A stretch of DNA of 64,000 nucleotides from Corallococcus macrosporus DSM 14697 (GTDB lineage Bacteria > Myxococcota > Myxococcia > Myxococcales > Myxococcaceae), in assembly GCF_002305895.1 (NCBI RefSeq), contig NZ_CP022203.1:8466001-8530000 (forward strand). The letters run 5' to 3'. The notes beneath the pieces are model-generated. The model made no database searches, was not told the DNA's origin, and was given only the letters and a program-made list of their open reading frames with translations. Shown here in pieces: positions 7,225 through 15,649 of the stretch (within the stretch, counting starts at the first letter, position 1; each line of letters starts with the position of its first letter). The translations under genes were made by a program, and so were the position numbers.

Positions 7225-7883
7225 GCCTTGCGAAACACATCGCGAAGACGCGCAAGAGGGAAGTCGTCACGGAGCGGGTGAACGGCTTTCAAACCAACTG
7301 CACCACGGGCTTCAAGAGGACAGGATACTGGGAGGCACACCACATCGTGTGTGTATCCTCCGTCGGCAAACGAAAGGTGGACTACCCCAAGTCCCCACCA
7401 GAGCTCGCTGACTACCTGGAAGCCTGCCTGTGGGTGACGCCGTGGGACATCAACGCAGCTCACAACCTCATCGGACTTCCATCGAATCGCCAGTACCGCG
7501 ACTCCAATGGAGAGAGTCCAGAGGACCTTCCTTCCCATCAGGTCGACCACAACACCCGGGGCGGATATACAGAAGAGGTATCAAAGTACCTCATGGAGAA
7601 CGTCTGGTGCTCGCTCACCGAGAAGAAGGAAGTTCATGATGTCGATATCGCAACATTGAAGGCGGAGCTTGAAAGCGCCAGCAGCATGTTCCGTGAACGC
7701 CTGGAGTCGCGAGGTGCGCGAAATGGGGGCACGAAGTTCTGCTGGAAGAACCGACATGAGGAGGGATTCGCACGGAAGTGGTACTACCCCTTCTCGATGG
7801 GAAAGAAGCCCAGCCACCGTTCTCCTGGCGTTTCGTATTCCCTCCTGGATTCCATCTTCAAGAAGATCAAACTACCTTTCTGA
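7221..7883 (+). CDS. AHH-motif HNH/Endo VII-fold nuclease, probable T6SS effector
   Basis: The protein has 220 residues and its start codon overlaps the preceding stop (ATGA). Residues 39-41 are AHH within WEAHHIVCVS, followed by WDINAAHNLIGLPSN (Asn82) and by SHQVDHNTRGGY (His106, His110). This order of AHH, then N-x-I-x-L-P, then H-x3-H is that of the AHH nuclease family of the HNH/Endonuclease VII superfamily, used widely as toxin domains. There is no signal peptide, transmembrane segment or PAAR domain, as expected for cargo loaded by separate adaptor proteins. The base composition is visibly more AT-rich than its neighbours, suggesting transfer. An Imm11-type gene follows 14 bases later, supporting a toxin-immunity pair. 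Predicted target is nucleic acid; DNA versus RNA cannot be told. Confidence 0.8.
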   Translation: MSLAKHIAKTRKREVVTERVNGFQTNCTTGFKRTGYWEAHHIVCVSSVGKRKVDYPKSPPELADYLEACLWVTPWDINAAHNLIGLPSNRQYRDSNGESPEDLPSHQVDHNTRGGYTEEVSKYLMENVWCSLTEKKEVHDVDIATLKAELESASSMFRERLESRGARNGGTKFCWKNRHEEGFARKWYYPFSMGKKPSHRSPGVSYSLLDSIFKKIKLPF

Positions 7884-7897
7884 GGCCTGAGGTGAAC

Positions 7898-8479
7898 GTG
7901 AGCAGCATGCCTGTCGTCTGGGAGTGGGATGTAGGCGAGCGTTTCTGTGTCCTGGATGGCGTCCAGAATGTCCCGAACGAGTATCAGCTCAGCAAGGGCA
8001 TCAGCCGTGCCCTGGGCTTTCCGGCCGATGCGAACTTCGCCATGTCCGCCAGGCACCGGAAGTACGTCGCCCTGGCAGACAACATCAGCAATATGAACCG
8101 GGCGCTGGTCGTCTCCCGCCGGCTGAAGGAAGTGGTCGAGGCGAAGCATCCACGCGATGTCGAGTTCCTCCCTGTTTCGATTCTCGACCACAAGCAGAAG
8201 GTGGCCAGCAGCGATTACTTCATCATCAACCCATTCAAGGTCGTCGACTGCATCGACAAGGACAAATCCAAGTACCGGTGGAACAACATTGATCCGGAAA
8301 AGATGAGTTCCTGCACCAGGCTCGTTCTCAAACCGGATGCAATCGATCCCGAACTGCTCCTGTTCCGGCCCCGGCACCTCGAATACTACGTCCTGGTTCA
8401 TCCAGACCTGGCCGAGGCGCTGGAGGGGGAGGGCTTCACGGGCCTCAGCTTCACGCCGCTCGACGAGTTCGAGTCCTGA
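7898..8479 (+). CDS. Imm11 (DUF1629)-type immunity protein
   Basis: A protein of 193 residues from GTG 7898, 5 bases after GAGG (7889-7892); the ATG at 7907 is an alternative, but its spacing is 14. The features fit the Imm11/DUF1629 family: an N-terminal strand VWEWDVGERF, a central VEFLPVSILDHK, a YFIINPFKVVDCID motif, and a C-terminal LKPDAIDPELLLFRPRHLEY block followed by HPDLAEALEGEGFTGLSF. The same N-P-x-x-x-V-D-C motif is present in the Imm11 paralogue encoded at 9329-9913. Lying directly after the AHH nuclease gene, it most likely protects the producer by binding that toxin in the cytoplasm. Composition is more AT-rich than the chromosome around it. Confidence 0.8.
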   Translation: MSSMPVVWEWDVGERFCVLDGVQNVPNEYQLSKGISRALGFPADANFAMSARHRKYVALADNISNMNRALVVSRRLKEVVEAKHPRDVEFLPVSILDHKQKVASSDYFIINPFKVVDCIDKDKSKYRWNNIDPEKMSSCTRLVLKPDAIDPELLLFRPRHLEYYVLVHPDLAEALEGEGFTGLSFTPLDEFES

Positions 8480-9328: not shown

Positions 9329-9913
9329 TCATCGTTGACCAGACTGCGCCAACTCCGTCACCAGGATATTGGTGGGGTCCGATGCTTCGAGTGCGTCTAC
9401 CATGCGTTCACTGATTACGTATCTCTGCGCGTCCCGCTCAATGCGGAAAAGGTCCGGCGCGTGCCTCAGTTTCCGTGGGTCCAGCACTCGCTCTTCAATC
9501 CGCACGATGTCCCGCCCCAGGTATTCAATCTGGCTCTCAGTGAAGTCCAAGCAGTCGACCGCGCCAACCGGGTTGACGAACCCATAGTCGCGAGAGTGAA
9601 TGCGGCCCTTGTGGTTATAGAGGGTAAAGGGCAGGTATTCGATCTCCACTCCCGGACAAAGCCGCGCAAATATTTCGCGAGTCTTCGCATCGACAAGCAG
9701 GAAGCGCTTGATGTTGCCAATCAGCGAGCCAGTAACGATGCCTGGATAAGCATCGCTCATTTGGAGCTTGGCATTCTCTGGGAAGAATGGGGCAGCTTTC
9801 TTACCCACGGACAGGTAATAGCTCTCCAGCCCCATGCCTTCCGGCTCACTGTCGATCAGGCAGAGCGAACTGTCGTTGATGTCACCCAAGGTCTCGATCA
9901 AGAAGTAGTTCAT
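9329..9913 (-). CDS. Imm11 (DUF1629)-type immunity protein, orphan on opposite strand
   Basis: The predicted protein has 194 residues with AGGAGA about 10 bases before the ATG. Imm11 features are: MNYFLIETLGD at the N terminus, a central IEYLPFTLYNHKGR, VNPVGAVDCLDF (same place as NPFKVVDCID in the 7898 gene), and DPRKLRHAPDLFRIERDAQRY followed by an ISERMVDALEA helix. No toxin gene is next to it: its downstream neighbour on the other strand ends only 15 bases away and upstream lies the CinA gene. Its AT-rich composition relative to the flanks argues for acquisition together with the effector island. It may be a spare immunity gene against toxins of competitors. Confidence 0.8.
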   Translation of the reverse strand: MNYFLIETLGDINDSSLCLIDSEPEGMGLESYYLSVGKKAAPFFPENAKLQMSDAYPGIVTGSLIGNIKRFLLVDAKTREIFARLCPGVEIEYLPFTLYNHKGRIHSRDYGFVNPVGAVDCLDFTESQIEYLGRDIVRIEERVLDPRKLRHAPDLFRIERDAQRYVISERMVDALEASDPTNILVTELAQSGQR

Positions 9914-10739: not shown

Positions 10740-12638
10740 GTGTCCCGGCGAGCGTGGAAGGTTGGAGTCCTGGCCCTGGTGGCCGCGTTCCTGACGGCCT
10801 GTGCGTCCAGACAGACGCCGACGGTCCCCGACAAGGTCGCGAGCCCGGAGGCCGCGGGCCCGGTCGCCGACGGCCCGGTCGCCGAGGCCGAGGCCTATCT
10901 ACACGCCTGGGCCGCGGGGGACTTCGCCGCCATGCGGCGCGCCGCCCTCAACCCGCCCGCGCACTTCGAGGCGATGCACCGGCAGTTCCGCGACGGGCTG
11001 CGCATCGCCTCCTCCCAGTTCGAGCTCGGCCCCTTCCAGCGCGATGGCGACGCCACCGTGGCCACCTACCGCGCCGCGCATCTGCTGCGAGGGCTCGGGG
11101 AATGGGAGGTGGAGGGGACGCTGCGCTTCGTCCGCCACCAGGGCCCCTGGCGCCTCCAGTGGACCCCCGCCGTCCTCCACCCCGAGGCCCGCGACGGGGA
11201 CCGGTTCTCCCGCACCCGCACGGCCCCCCAGCGCGCGGACATCCTCGACGCGCGCGGGGCGCTGCTCACCCCACAAGGCGAGGTCATCACCATCGGCGTC
11301 GACCCCTCCCGCGTGCGGAACATGGCGGACGTGGCGGCGGCGCTCCAGTTCCAGACCGGTGTGAGCACCGCGCGGTTCGACGCGGCGATGCGCGCGCCGG
11401 GCGCGGCGACGAGCCGCTTCGTGCCCATCGTCGACCTGCCCCCCGAGCACTACCAGCAGGTGCGCCCCGCGCTGGCCCCCGTGCCCGGCATCTTCTTCCG
11501 CCGCAAGAGCGCGCGGACCTCGGCCGACGGCTTCGCGTCCCACACCCTGGGCCGCGTGGGCGAGGTGACGGCGGAGCTGCTTCCCCAAATGGGCCCCACC
11601 TACCTGCCGGGCGACCTCGTGGGCCTCTCCGGCCTGGAGCGGGCCTACGAGGTCCAGCTCGCGGGGAGCCCCTCCGGCGACGTCCTGCTCATGCGCGCAT
11701 GGGGCGAGACACAGGTCCTCTTCCACTTCGAGGGCGAGCCCGGCGCGCCCCTGTCCACCACGCTGCGCCGCGAGGTCCAGGCCGCCGCGGAGGCCGCGCT
11801 CGAAGGCGTGACCCACCCCGCCGCCCTCGTCGCCGTGGACAGCGCCACGGGCGCCATCCTCGCCGTCGCCAGCCGGCCGCTCTCCCAGCCGCTGCACCGC
11901 GCCCTCACGGGCCGCTATCCGCCTGGGTCCACCTTCAAGGTCGTCACCACGGAGGCGCTGCTCGCCCAGGGCATGCGCGTGGACTCCCCTGTCGCCTGCC
12001 CTCCCACGGCGATGGTGCGCAGCAAGTCCTTCCGGAACTTCGAAGGTGAATCCCTGGGAGACACCACGCTGCGGCAGGTGTTCGCCCACTCGTGCAACAC
12101 CGCGTTCGTGACGCTCGCGACGGGGCTTGGCGGTGACGCCCTGAGCGCCGCGGCCCGGCGCTTCGGCTTCGATGTGCCCTACGCCCCCGGGCTCACCTCC
12201 GCGGGCGCGTCGTTCCCCGCGCCCGCCGATGCCATCGAGCTGGCGGCCGCCGCCATCGGACAGGGGCGCGTGCTCGCCACGCCCCTGCACATGGCCTCGG
12301 TCGCCGCGGCGGCGGAGACCGGAGAATGGCGCGCCCCCTTTCTCGTGGAGGGGCTCGACGGCGGACCGAGCAGCCCGCTCTCGGACGGCGTCCGGGCGCC
12401 GCTCACCACGCTGATGCGCGCCGTCGTCACGGAAGGCTCCGGCAAGGCAGGCCGGAGTGTGCCTGGGCTCGCCGGCAAGACGGGCACCGCCGAGTTCGGC
12501 ACCGTGGCGCCCCTGCCCACCCACGCGTGGTTCATCGGGTTCCGCAAGGGCGTGGGCTTCGCCGTCCTGGTGGAAGGCGGCGGCGTGGGCGGGCGGGTCG
12601 CCGCGCCCATCGCCGCGAAGTTCGCTGGCGCGCTGTAA
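10740..12638 (+). CDS. Lipoprotein penicillin-binding protein transpeptidase with MecA-N-like domain
   Basis: The predicted protein has 632 residues from GTG 10740. The N terminus is a lipoprotein signal ending in the lipobox LTAC, so the protein is expected to be anchored in the membrane facing the periplasm. Residues about 45-150 resemble the NTF2-like MecA_N domain (HAWAAGDFAAMRRAALN), and the middle part resembles the PBP dimerisation domain. The transpeptidase motifs are complete: SxxK as STFK (Ser397, Lys400), SxN as SCN in FAHSCNTAF, and KTG as GKTGTAE (Lys580). It should cross-link peptidoglycan and be acylated by beta-lactams. It is monocistronic between the pncC gene and the convergent GH15-like gene. 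Confidence 0.9.
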   Translation: MSRRAWKVGVLALVAAFLTACASRQTPTVPDKVASPEAAGPVADGPVAEAEAYLHAWAAGDFAAMRRAALNPPAHFEAMHRQFRDGLRIASSQFELGPFQRDGDATVATYRAAHLLRGLGEWEVEGTLRFVRHQGPWRLQWTPAVLHPEARDGDRFSRTRTAPQRADILDARGALLTPQGEVITIGVDPSRVRNMADVAAALQFQTGVSTARFDAAMRAPGAATSRFVPIVDLPPEHYQQVRPALAPVPGIFFRRKSARTSADGFASHTLGRVGEVTAELLPQMGPTYLPGDLVGLSGLERAYEVQLAGSPSGDVLLMRAWGETQVLFHFEGEPGAPLSTTLRREVQAAAEAALEGVTHPAALVAVDSATGAILAVASRPLSQPLHRALTGRYPPGSTFKVVTTEALLAQGMRVDSPVACPPTAMVRSKSFRNFEGESLGDTTLRQVFAHSCNTAFVTLATGLGGDALSAAARRFGFDVPYAPGLTSAGASFPAPADAIELAAAAIGQGRVLATPLHMASVAAAAETGEWRAPFLVEGLDGGPSSPLSDGVRAPLTTLMRAVVTEGSGKAGRSVPGLAGKTGTAEFGTVAPLPTHAWFIGFRKGVGFAVLVEGGGVGGRVAAPIAAKFAGAL

Positions 12639-12694
12639 CGCGCGCGAGCGTGCGCATCCGCGTCATACGCCACCCACCTTCGTGGCTCCGCTCG

Positions 12695-12896
12695 GCGCAG
12701 CGCCACGACCAGCCCCGCCAAGGCCACGGTGCGCGGCCGCCCACCCGTCGCGCGCCGCCCGACGCTCAGGCCCCGCGGCGGCGCAGCGCCATGGCCAGCC
12801 CCGCGAAGGCCACGGTGCGCGGCCGCCCACCCGTCGCGCGCCGCGCGCCGCTCACGCCCCGCGGCGGCGCAGCGCCACGACCAGCCCCGCGAAGGC
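12695..12896. repeat. 86-bp tandem repeat over the 3' end of the MYXO-CTERM gene (about 2.35 copies)
   Basis: Copy A is 12695-12780, copy B 12781-12866 and partial copy C 12867-12896. Each begins GCGCAGCGCC and runs through a shared GGCCACGGTGCGCGGCCGCC block; A and B differ only slightly. Copy C lies inside the coding sequence and encodes the end of the MYXO-CTERM tail (FAGLVVALRRRGA), including the twin-Arg end. Copies A and B lie after the stop codon (12852-12854) and carry out-of-frame duplicates of that tail. The period is not a multiple of three. Confidence 0.85.
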
Positions 12897-15431
12897 AACC
12901 ACCAGCCACAGCGCCACCGCGCCCGGCCCCGTCGCGCTGCAGCCACCCCCGCCGCCGCCCACGTCTCCACCGTTGCCCGGCGGCGTGCCCGCGTCCGGCG
13001 TGCCCGTGCCCGCGTCGGGCTGCTGCGTGCCCGCGTCCGGCGTGCCCGTGCCCGCGTCGGGCTGCTTCGTCAGCGTGCGCTCGTCGAAGTACGCGCCACA
13101 CGCCGGGTCATTCCCCCCGGCCGCGCGGTGCTCCAGCGCCAGCGCGTAGGCGCCCGCGCCAAAGCCCGCCATGGGCGTGTTGTACTTGTAGGTGCCGTTC
13201 ACCTCGTCATACGTCTCCGCCACGGCCAGGTAGTTCATCAGCGACTGGTCCGTCACCCACTTCAGCACGCGGTCCGCGCGCGCCACGTCACCGCCCATGC
13301 GCCTGGCCACCGCGCCGCGCAGGCTGACGATGACCCACTCCGCGCTGTCGTACTCACCGCCCCAGGGGCTCAGGTCCGTGCCACCCGGGTGGTCATACCG
13401 GTCATCGTTGCGCTGCCAGCCCGCCCCCGCCGGCGAGGACAGGCGCAGGTCGAGTCCGCGGTAGGTCTCCCGCGCGATCTTCCCCGCCGGGTCGAACAGC
13501 TCGAAGGCGAACGCGTCGAACACCGCCGCGTCCCAGTAGCCGCGGCCCGTCTTCAGCTCCTCCAGGTTGGAGGCCAGCGCGAAGTTGCTGTCCGTCAGCG
13601 TCTCCGCCATCGCCCGGCGCAGGGACTCGCCCGCCTGGCGGTAGCGCTGCGCGCGCTCCGTGTCCCCCACCCGCTGCGCCAGCTCCGCCGCGTCACACAG
13701 GCCGCGCGCCGCCGTCAGGCTGGTGTACGTCCAGGAGCGCTGCCGCCCGTTCCAGTGCGTCTCCCAGATGGACGAGTCCGGCCGGATGAGCCCCGTCACC
13801 GGGTCGATGAGCGCCACCAGCGCGTCCCCCACCTTCGTGGACACCGTGGGCCACGTCTCGTCCACCAGCGTGGTGTCTCCCGTCGCCCGCTCGTAGTGCC
13901 GCAGCGCCCAGAGGAAGAGCCCGAAGCCGTCGAACTCGATGTTCGGCCCCGCCTCGTTGAAGTCCGTCTCCTCCACGCCGAAGCCGTGGTAGCGCGTGAG
14001 GGTGATGATGTACGGCGGCATCGAGTACGGCTCCAGCTCCCGCCAGTGCTGGAATCGGCCGCTGTCCGCGTTGAGGTAGTAGGATAGCGCGTCGCGCGCG
14101 TCGCGCTGCATGCCCAGCGTGGCCATGGCCGCCACCGAGTAGGCGCCGTCCCGAATCCAGGCATACGTCCACTGCCCGGGCGGGAGGCTCGCCAGCACCG
14201 CGCCGTAGCCCGCGTGACGCACCATGCCCGGCAGCGCCGCCGGCGAGCCATCCGGCGCCTTGAAGCGCGTGCGGCGCGGCTCACCATCCCGCGACAGCGA
14301 CTCCCGCAGGTACACGTCGCGCGAGCGCACCTGCGCCATGTGCAGCACCACCGCCGAGTGCCGCAGCAGGGACTCCTCGTCCGCGGACATGCCCGCCGGC
14401 GCCTTCACCGTGTCCGTCTGGAACGCCGCCCACCGCGCCACCTCCGCGTCCACCAGCGCCTGGGCGCTGGACGTGCCCGCGTAGTCCGCCAGCCACTGCC
14501 GCACGGTGGCCCCGGCCTCGGGGTCGCCGTGGTGCGCGAAGGCCACGCCCACCCACCGCTCCGCGCCCGCCGGGAGGTCCCCCAGGTTGAACTGGTACGC
14601 CGTCGCCCAGCCCGTCCCCACAGACGGCTGCGCCGTGAAGTCCCGCAGGTCCTGCCCACCGCCGTTGTTCACCACGGTGTAGGCGTTCTGCGCGCCCGTC
14701 GCGCTGGACAGCCACGCCGACCTGCGCGCCACCGTGCCCAGCGGCCGCGCCACCACCACGCCCGCGAAGCCCTTCTCCACGAAGTCGTCGCCGCTCAACG
14801 ACACCGTCTCGCCGTTCTCATCCAGGTCCGCCATCACGCCCGGCCGGCCGAAGCCCAGGTGGAAGTTGTGGAGCGAGAAGGCGCTCACGCCGGTGACGGG
14901 CGCCGTGCCGGTGTTGCGCACCCGCAGCGCCATGACGAAGGACGCGTGGGGCAGGCCCTGCGGCGCGAAGACGAACGTCGTCGCCTCCAGCGCCCCCACC
15001 CGCTGCACCAGCGTCCCCAGCCCCGTGCCCCCCGTCTTCTCCGCCGCCCACGCCGCGTAGCCGCTGGCGTCCCGGTCCGCCTCCAGCGTGCTGAGCCAGC
15101 GCTGCGTGCCCCCGGAGCGCAGGCCGAAGAACGCGTCGTAGAGCACGTCGCGGGCGTGAATCACCTTCGGGTGGCCGTGCTCGAAGACGTCATTGCCCGC
15201 CGCGTCGATGACGGGCTCCTCGGTGGCGAACAGGTGCTCGCGGAAGTGCGTCACCTTGCGCTGCTCCACGTCGAGCATCACCGCGCCATGCCCGTTGGAC
15301 GAAGGCAGGCGCAGGAAGGAGCGTTGGATGGGGACCTCCGCGCGGGCGCTGGCGCCCACGGTGCACAGCAGCGCGAGCAGCCACGCGGGCCGCTGGCCGA
15401 GTCGGTGAGACAGGCGGGGGGTGGGAATCAT
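12852..15431 (-). CDS. GH15-like (glucoamylase-type) exported protein with MYXO-CTERM sorting tail
   Basis: The predicted protein has 859 residues from ATG 15431 (MIPTPRLSHRLGQ) with a signal peptide ending near ASARAEVP. The body matches glucan-hydrolase proteins of the GH15 (alpha/alpha)6 type: an N-terminal beta-rich domain, then QWTYAWIRDGAYSVAAM, NIEFDGFGLFLWALRHY and SSIWETHWNGRQRSWTYTS, which is the usual order of substrate-binding and acid-residue motifs. Substrate is unproven. The C terminus is a low-complexity linker of PDAGTGTP units, a Gly run, a conserved GC pair, one hydrophobic helix and RRR, typical of MYXO-CTERM proteins that are sorted to the cell surface. The stop lies within an 86-bp tandem repeat. 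The gene converges on the PBP gene. Confidence 0.85.
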   Translation of the reverse strand: MIPTPRLSHRLGQRPAWLLALLCTVGASARAEVPIQRSFLRLPSSNGHGAVMLDVEQRKVTHFREHLFATEEPVIDAAGNDVFEHGHPKVIHARDVLYDAFFGLRSGGTQRWLSTLEADRDASGYAAWAAEKTGGTGLGTLVQRVGALEATTFVFAPQGLPHASFVMALRVRNTGTAPVTGVSAFSLHNFHLGFGRPGVMADLDENGETVSLSGDDFVEKGFAGVVVARPLGTVARRSAWLSSATGAQNAYTVVNNGGGQDLRDFTAQPSVGTGWATAYQFNLGDLPAGAERWVGVAFAHHGDPEAGATVRQWLADYAGTSSAQALVDAEVARWAAFQTDTVKAPAGMSADEESLLRHSAVVLHMAQVRSRDVYLRESLSRDGEPRRTRFKAPDGSPAALPGMVRHAGYGAVLASLPPGQWTYAWIRDGAYSVAAMATLGMQRDARDALSYYLNADSGRFQHWRELEPYSMPPYIITLTRYHGFGVEETDFNEAGPNIEFDGFGLFLWALRHYERATGDTTLVDETWPTVSTKVGDALVALIDPVTGLIRPDSSIWETHWNGRQRSWTYTSLTAARGLCDAAELAQRVGDTERAQRYRQAGESLRRAMAETLTDSNFALASNLEELKTGRGYWDAAVFDAFAFELFDPAGKIARETYRGLDLRLSSPAGAGWQRNDDRYDHPGGTDLSPWGGEYDSAEWVIVSLRGAVARRMGGDVARADRVLKWVTDQSLMNYLAVAETYDEVNGTYKYNTPMAGFGAGAYALALEHRAAGGNDPACGAYFDERTLTKQPDAGTGTPDAGTQQPDAGTGTPDAGTPPGNGGDVGGGGGGCSATGPGAVALWLVVAFAGLVVALRRRGA
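12985..13068. repeat. Two perfect-type 42-bp direct repeats coding for the PDAGT linker
   Basis: Units 12985-13026 and 13027-13068 each encode 14 residues (PDAGTGTPDAGTQQ type) in the spacer before the MYXO-CTERM tail. The period is a multiple of three and keeps the frame. This is coding repetition, not a CRISPR. Confidence 0.85.
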
Positions 15432-15649
15432 GCGGCGGATTCTGGGGCCCTTCCCGCCCCAGGCCAACGGGTGTGAAACCACCTCTCTTGCCGACCTTCC
15501 TGGAAAAGGCTGTTTCAACTCGCGTTTCAGGCCGGACTCTGGCGCCTCCGCGCAACCGCCTGTCGCCACCCGTCTCCCAAGAAATGGGACTCATCACGTC
15601 CTGACTGGTGACGCGGCACCGGACCACCCATCGCCGCGCAGGGGACCAC

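Follow-up and report, generated by a model that had tools for sequence, protein, structure and literature searches.

Behind the stop codon of a GH15-type glycosidase gene at this locus, the end of the gene recurs head to tail in the gap that separates it from a convergent penicillin-binding-protein transpeptidase gene, which raises the question of whether the repeated ends serve either gene or are simply carried along. The original prediction had described an 86-bp tandem amplification of a coding end past its stop, and had proposed that it could let recombination swap or add sorting tails or could act in termination between the convergent genes. Within the window (the whole 64,000-nt stretch of DNA that was analysed), TRF reports a tandem array at positions 12693-12896 with a period of 86, 2.4 copies, 93% matches, no indels and a score of 366, and a second repeat search placed the array in the same register. 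Among 1000 first-order Markov sequences of 1600 nt each, modelled on positions 12001-13600, TRF scores did not exceed 86, and no array had a period of at least 50. The copies thus lie head to tail and in register at a level far above chance, and the predicted amplification is borne out by both searches.

The array spans the stop codon of the GH15-type gene, for which the ATG at 15437 was chosen as the start (the longest ORF runs from 15569). The encoded protein ends in ...GCSATGPGAVALWLVVAFAGLVVALRRRGA. In the MYXO-CTERM plan, as described in PMC11980579, a cysteine motif is followed by a transmembrane helix and then by an Arg-rich end, and the real C-terminus of this gene resembles these myxosortase MrtX substrates (TIGR03901) in having a Cys motif, a hydrophobic helix and an Arg-rich end. 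In a genome scan the gene's own end scored 23.1 bits with TIGR03901 (cut-off 20); the whole protein scored 15.3 bits, below that cut-off, and reached 18.7 of 27 with JDVT-CTERM. Ahead of the sorting tail, a 42-bp in-frame repeat (12983-13070) encodes a Pro-Asp-Ala-Gly-rich linker. Most of the short genus-wide matches listed fall on this linker (about 12984-13063 of the window), so this type of linker recurs at many other places in these genomes. Two nearby ORFs, 7778-8479 on the plus strand and 9329-9913 on the minus strand, resemble each other as paralogues would (E=1e-15, with 30% identity across 162 positions).

Table 1. Positions of the two convergent genes, the repeat copies and the spacer hairpins in the window.
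Feature	Positions	Strand	Evidence or remarks
Penicillin-binding-protein transpeptidase gene, convergent	10740-12638	+	PF00905, PF03717, PF05223
GH15-type glycosidase gene with C-terminal MYXO-CTERM-like tail	12852-15437	-	PF00723, E=1e-11; stop TGA at 12852-12854
Copy A: real coding end (48 nt including the stop) and first spacer (12814-12851)	12814-12899	-	TRF, repeat search, 6/86 differences to B
Copy B: complete 86-nt unit past the stop, tail-like part and second spacer (12728-12765)	12728-12813	-	6/86 differences to A
Copy C: partial distal tail copy, diverged beyond	12693-12727	-	First 35 nt: 2 differences to A, 3 to B
GC-rich hairpin in the first spacer	12814-12849	+	Spacer fold (RNAfold, 38 nt): -27.2 kcal/mol (+ strand), -23.6 kcal/mol (- strand)
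Hairpin in the second spacer, 10-pair stem and 9-nt loop (+ strand)	12728-12756	+	Spacer fold (RNAfold, 38 nt): -19.2 kcal/mol (+ strand), -21.0 kcal/mol (- strand)

The 86-bp unit consists of the gene's last 16 codons including the stop, followed by a GC-rich, hairpin-capable spacer of 38 nt. It starts within the membrane helix (VAFAGL...) and takes in the Arg end and the stop before the spacer begins. Read in the orientation of the gene, the order is the real end in copy A, a spacer, copy B, a spacer, and copy C, which diverges after 35 nt. The predicted arrangement of one copy inside the gene and two beyond its stop is therefore correct for the tail part, which occurs as A, B and C, but not for the spacer, which occurs only twice, nor for C as a full copy. 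Because 86 leaves a remainder of 2 when divided by 3, neither B nor C shares the reading frame of the gene, as had been anticipated, and each of the three tail copies occupies a frame of its own. Since the first stop codon is the one in copy A, the coding end works as before.

A stretch matching the GH15 gene was found in 27 of 27 searched genomes of the genus, the window's own included, and eight relatives (L010-L017) have kept the same convergent gene pair; the genome collections compared contain one genome per species. The convergent gap measures 213 nt here versus 24, 24, 38, 97, 97, 97, 102 and 54 nt in L010 to L017, respectively. Three of the eight relatives (L013, L014 and L015) carry a decayed tail copy past the stop, which none of 500 dinucleotide shuffles matched in any of the three; when the same genes were retested as L100-L102, 0, 1 and 0 of 300 mononucleotide shuffles did so. 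Their order is stop, hairpin and tail copy, and the tail copy begins right after the hairpin, at the same junction as here. No clear tail copy was found in the other five relatives with the gene pair or in 17 more distant orthologues in the genus (an 18th, L107, was left out because of a wrong frame), and a score of 25 in the L120 orthologue, reached by 2 of 300 shuffles, was treated as chance among many tests. Copy number therefore differs between relatives, with two extra tail copies here, one in three relatives and none in five, and the additional 86-bp unit is found here only among the nine genomes with the gene pair.

The gene tree places the window's own lineage next to L010-L015 as their sister (support 77/75) and joins L013-L015 to L011, from which a fork with support of 48/8 separates them. 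Given this position, the tail copy in L013-L015 implies either one old duplication that was lost in L010, L011 and L012 or two origins at the same junction. The shared junction favors a single origin of copy C and the relatives' copy; the same short homology could also have given rise to duplications in parallel. The array thus represents lineage-specific growth of a probably older duplication. The divergence between copies A and B is 0.07 (6 differences in 86 sites). At third positions, the divergence is 0.123 to L010, which has diverged least among the eight relatives, so that the last duplication step looks younger than that split. A recent last step fits provided that the gap evolves at about the third-position rate. 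By eye, copy B appears older at three of the six A-B differences, where A differs from all eight relatives and B keeps their letter, and A appears older at one (7/8 relatives); the other two, past the stop, carry no signal from the relatives.

Slippage and unequal recombination are general routes by which gene ends or terminators become duplicated in tandem, and the array resembles their products in having head-to-tail copies, a partial last copy, decay in relatives and a hairpin in the unit; it differs from them in that the unit includes a sorting-tail coding end. We consider it quite probable that replication slippage or unequal recombination duplicated the last 16 codons (stop included) together with the 3′ hairpin head to tail within the convergent gap, and that copies B and C are untranslated, largely neutral passengers. 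Two steps are probable: the distal tail copy C would have arisen first, and pairing between two tail copies 86 bp apart would then have added one 86-bp unit to give A, B and C. The main effect, if any, may be an extra terminator-like hairpin between the convergent genes, plausibly as a by-product. Two observations sit less easily with this explanation: the presence of a copy in L013-L015 and its absence from L010-L012 call for losses or parallel duplication, and copy C resembles A too closely over its 35 nt to be very old, unless homogenization has occurred.

Other readings of the repeated tails fare much worse. A reservoir from which recombination changes or adds MYXO-CTERM ends, or in which a tail in each frame rescues a frameshift, could draw on the fact that every frame near the gene end meets a hydrophobic-Arg stretch (ORFs 12766-13101 and 12179-12970) and on copy B having kept the relatives' letter at three of the four A-B differences that they resolve. 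Judged from their sequence, however, the extra copies cannot serve as sorting tails: they are out of frame, they begin inside the helix downstream of the signature cysteine and so carry only its second half with the Arg end, and neither alternative-frame ORF reading B or C matches an NCBIfam family. In addition, the copies have decayed in all three relatives that have one, and the 16 other evaluated MYXO-CTERM ends of the genome have no comparable copy. That the copies act as a store of sorting tails is thus very unlikely, and this part of the original prediction is not supported. Equally hard to sustain is an assembly or sequencing artefact. GC-rich tandem repeats are prone to misassembly, but the genome is in one contig, three relatives carry a trace of the tail duplication at the same place, and, with six differences between A and B, identical reads trivially duplicated during assembly cannot account for the array. 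Somewhat less remote, though still improbable, is a scenario in which terminator hairpins at the ends of genes act as recurrent duplication seeds in these GC-rich genomes and the duplication front has entered the coding end; the present tail would then be the more diverged one, copy B would be the former end, and the three frames would give a frameshifted product a membrane-Arg end. The gap shows growth and shrinkage of short convergent gaps by hairpin-associated duplication and deletion and has little significance alone, but if terminator hairpins repeatedly seed duplications into coding ends genus-wide, gene-end remodelling by such a route would become testable.

The remaining alternative is that the unit was kept by selection, since a second hairpin would improve bidirectional termination between the convergent genes. 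The spacers can form GC-rich hairpins between two convergent stops, as intrinsic (Rho-independent) terminators in convergent gaps do, but they differ from such terminators in the missing T run: positions 12400-13200 contain no T run after a stem, no terminator-like site and no promoter, and a promoter or T-tailed terminator was rejected. A known RNA element was likewise rejected, as 12500-13100 gave no Rfam match up to E=1. Five of the eight relatives have a hairpin at the corresponding place. In L013-L015 and L017 it has a stem of about 10 pairs and a short loop, and in L016 two GC-rich hairpins lie in tandem behind the GH15 gene, apparently from an independent duplication. By eye, one base pair shows a two-sided change (C-G to T-A) when L013-L015 are compared with L017 and the second hairpin of L016. 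Elsewhere in the genome, another non-coding array (L131:9014-9156; G000:C1:2359014-2359156) repeats a T-tailed terminator-like hairpin in tandem with a 71-bp unit, 2 nt behind a gene end. On the other hand, L010, L011 and L012 manage without a comparable hairpin in the orthologous gap, and the fold of the whole gap is only slightly better than that of shuffled sequences (z of -1.5 on the plus and -1.3 on the minus strand).

Among 122 convergent gaps of 25-400 nt sampled from this genome, a stem of at least 9 pairs was found in 69 and one of at least 11 in 41. The corresponding shares in 610 random windows of matched length are 26.1% and 5.4%; these windows were drawn regardless of genes and are therefore mostly coding. 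The excess is smaller relative to other gaps but remains, with stems of at least 11 in 70/432 codirectional and 13/135 divergent gaps (mean gap lengths are 134 nt for convergent, 127 nt for codirectional and 174 nt for divergent gaps). Convergent gaps of this genome thus often contain strong hairpins, and a role in termination is plausible on that account. Stems of at least 11 also occur in 115 of 993 random windows of 213 nt, however, and hairpin strength was rejected as proof of function. The array multiplies what is probably a transcription-stop hairpin, and a benefit for termination is possible, but amplification selected for that benefit is unlikely. The predicted role in termination is favored by the inverted-repeat spacer, the hairpins in relatives and the hairpin-rich convergent gaps, and opposed by the lack of a T run and by the three relatives without a hairpin. 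With this alternative weighed, we favor a fast-changing convergent gap in which slippage or unequal recombination duplicated the hairpin-bearing end of the gene, with the extra copies as untranslated, slowly decaying passengers.

Duplication past the stop is not a general habit of MYXO-CTERM genes. Eighteen MYXO-CTERM gene ends were found in the genome and 17 evaluated (L089 was left out); only the GH15 gene has a clear tail copy past its stop (score 76, as compared with 15-28 for the other 16). The ends at L080, L083 and L092, with scores of 26, 26 and 28 reached by 3, 8 and 8 of 300 shuffles, were treated as chance. A dispersed repeat element was rejected as well. A search of the genome with a 341-nt query gave, besides the locus itself, nine short matches (33-89 nt, 72-88% identity, E of 2.7e-6 to 7.5e-4); the seven of these that were inspected (L002-L008) are GC-rich, and in none of them do the unit's tail, stop and spacer occur jointly. 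The main text of PMC11980579 does not contain "repeat", "duplicat" or "stop codon", and a literature search on duplications at convergent genes gave no match, although the literature was covered too narrowly to claim that no comparable case has been published.

In 2.06 Mb of the genome (including 7500 bases of N), 27 arrays with a period of at least 40 and at least 85% matches were found. Only four of them have a period not divisible by 3, all four wholly or mostly outside called genes, and among the 27 the 86-bp array alone runs across the stop codon of a called gene. Such an overlap is not unique when identity is lower: two arrays of 72% identity, L131:2807-3292 and L144:10982-11198 within the first 464 kb, likewise extend over the ends of called genes. 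Elsewhere, a 126-bp tandem array (L178:7350-7587) contains two tRNA-Gly (gcc) genes with their flanks, at 7382-7456 and 7508-7582 on the minus strand.
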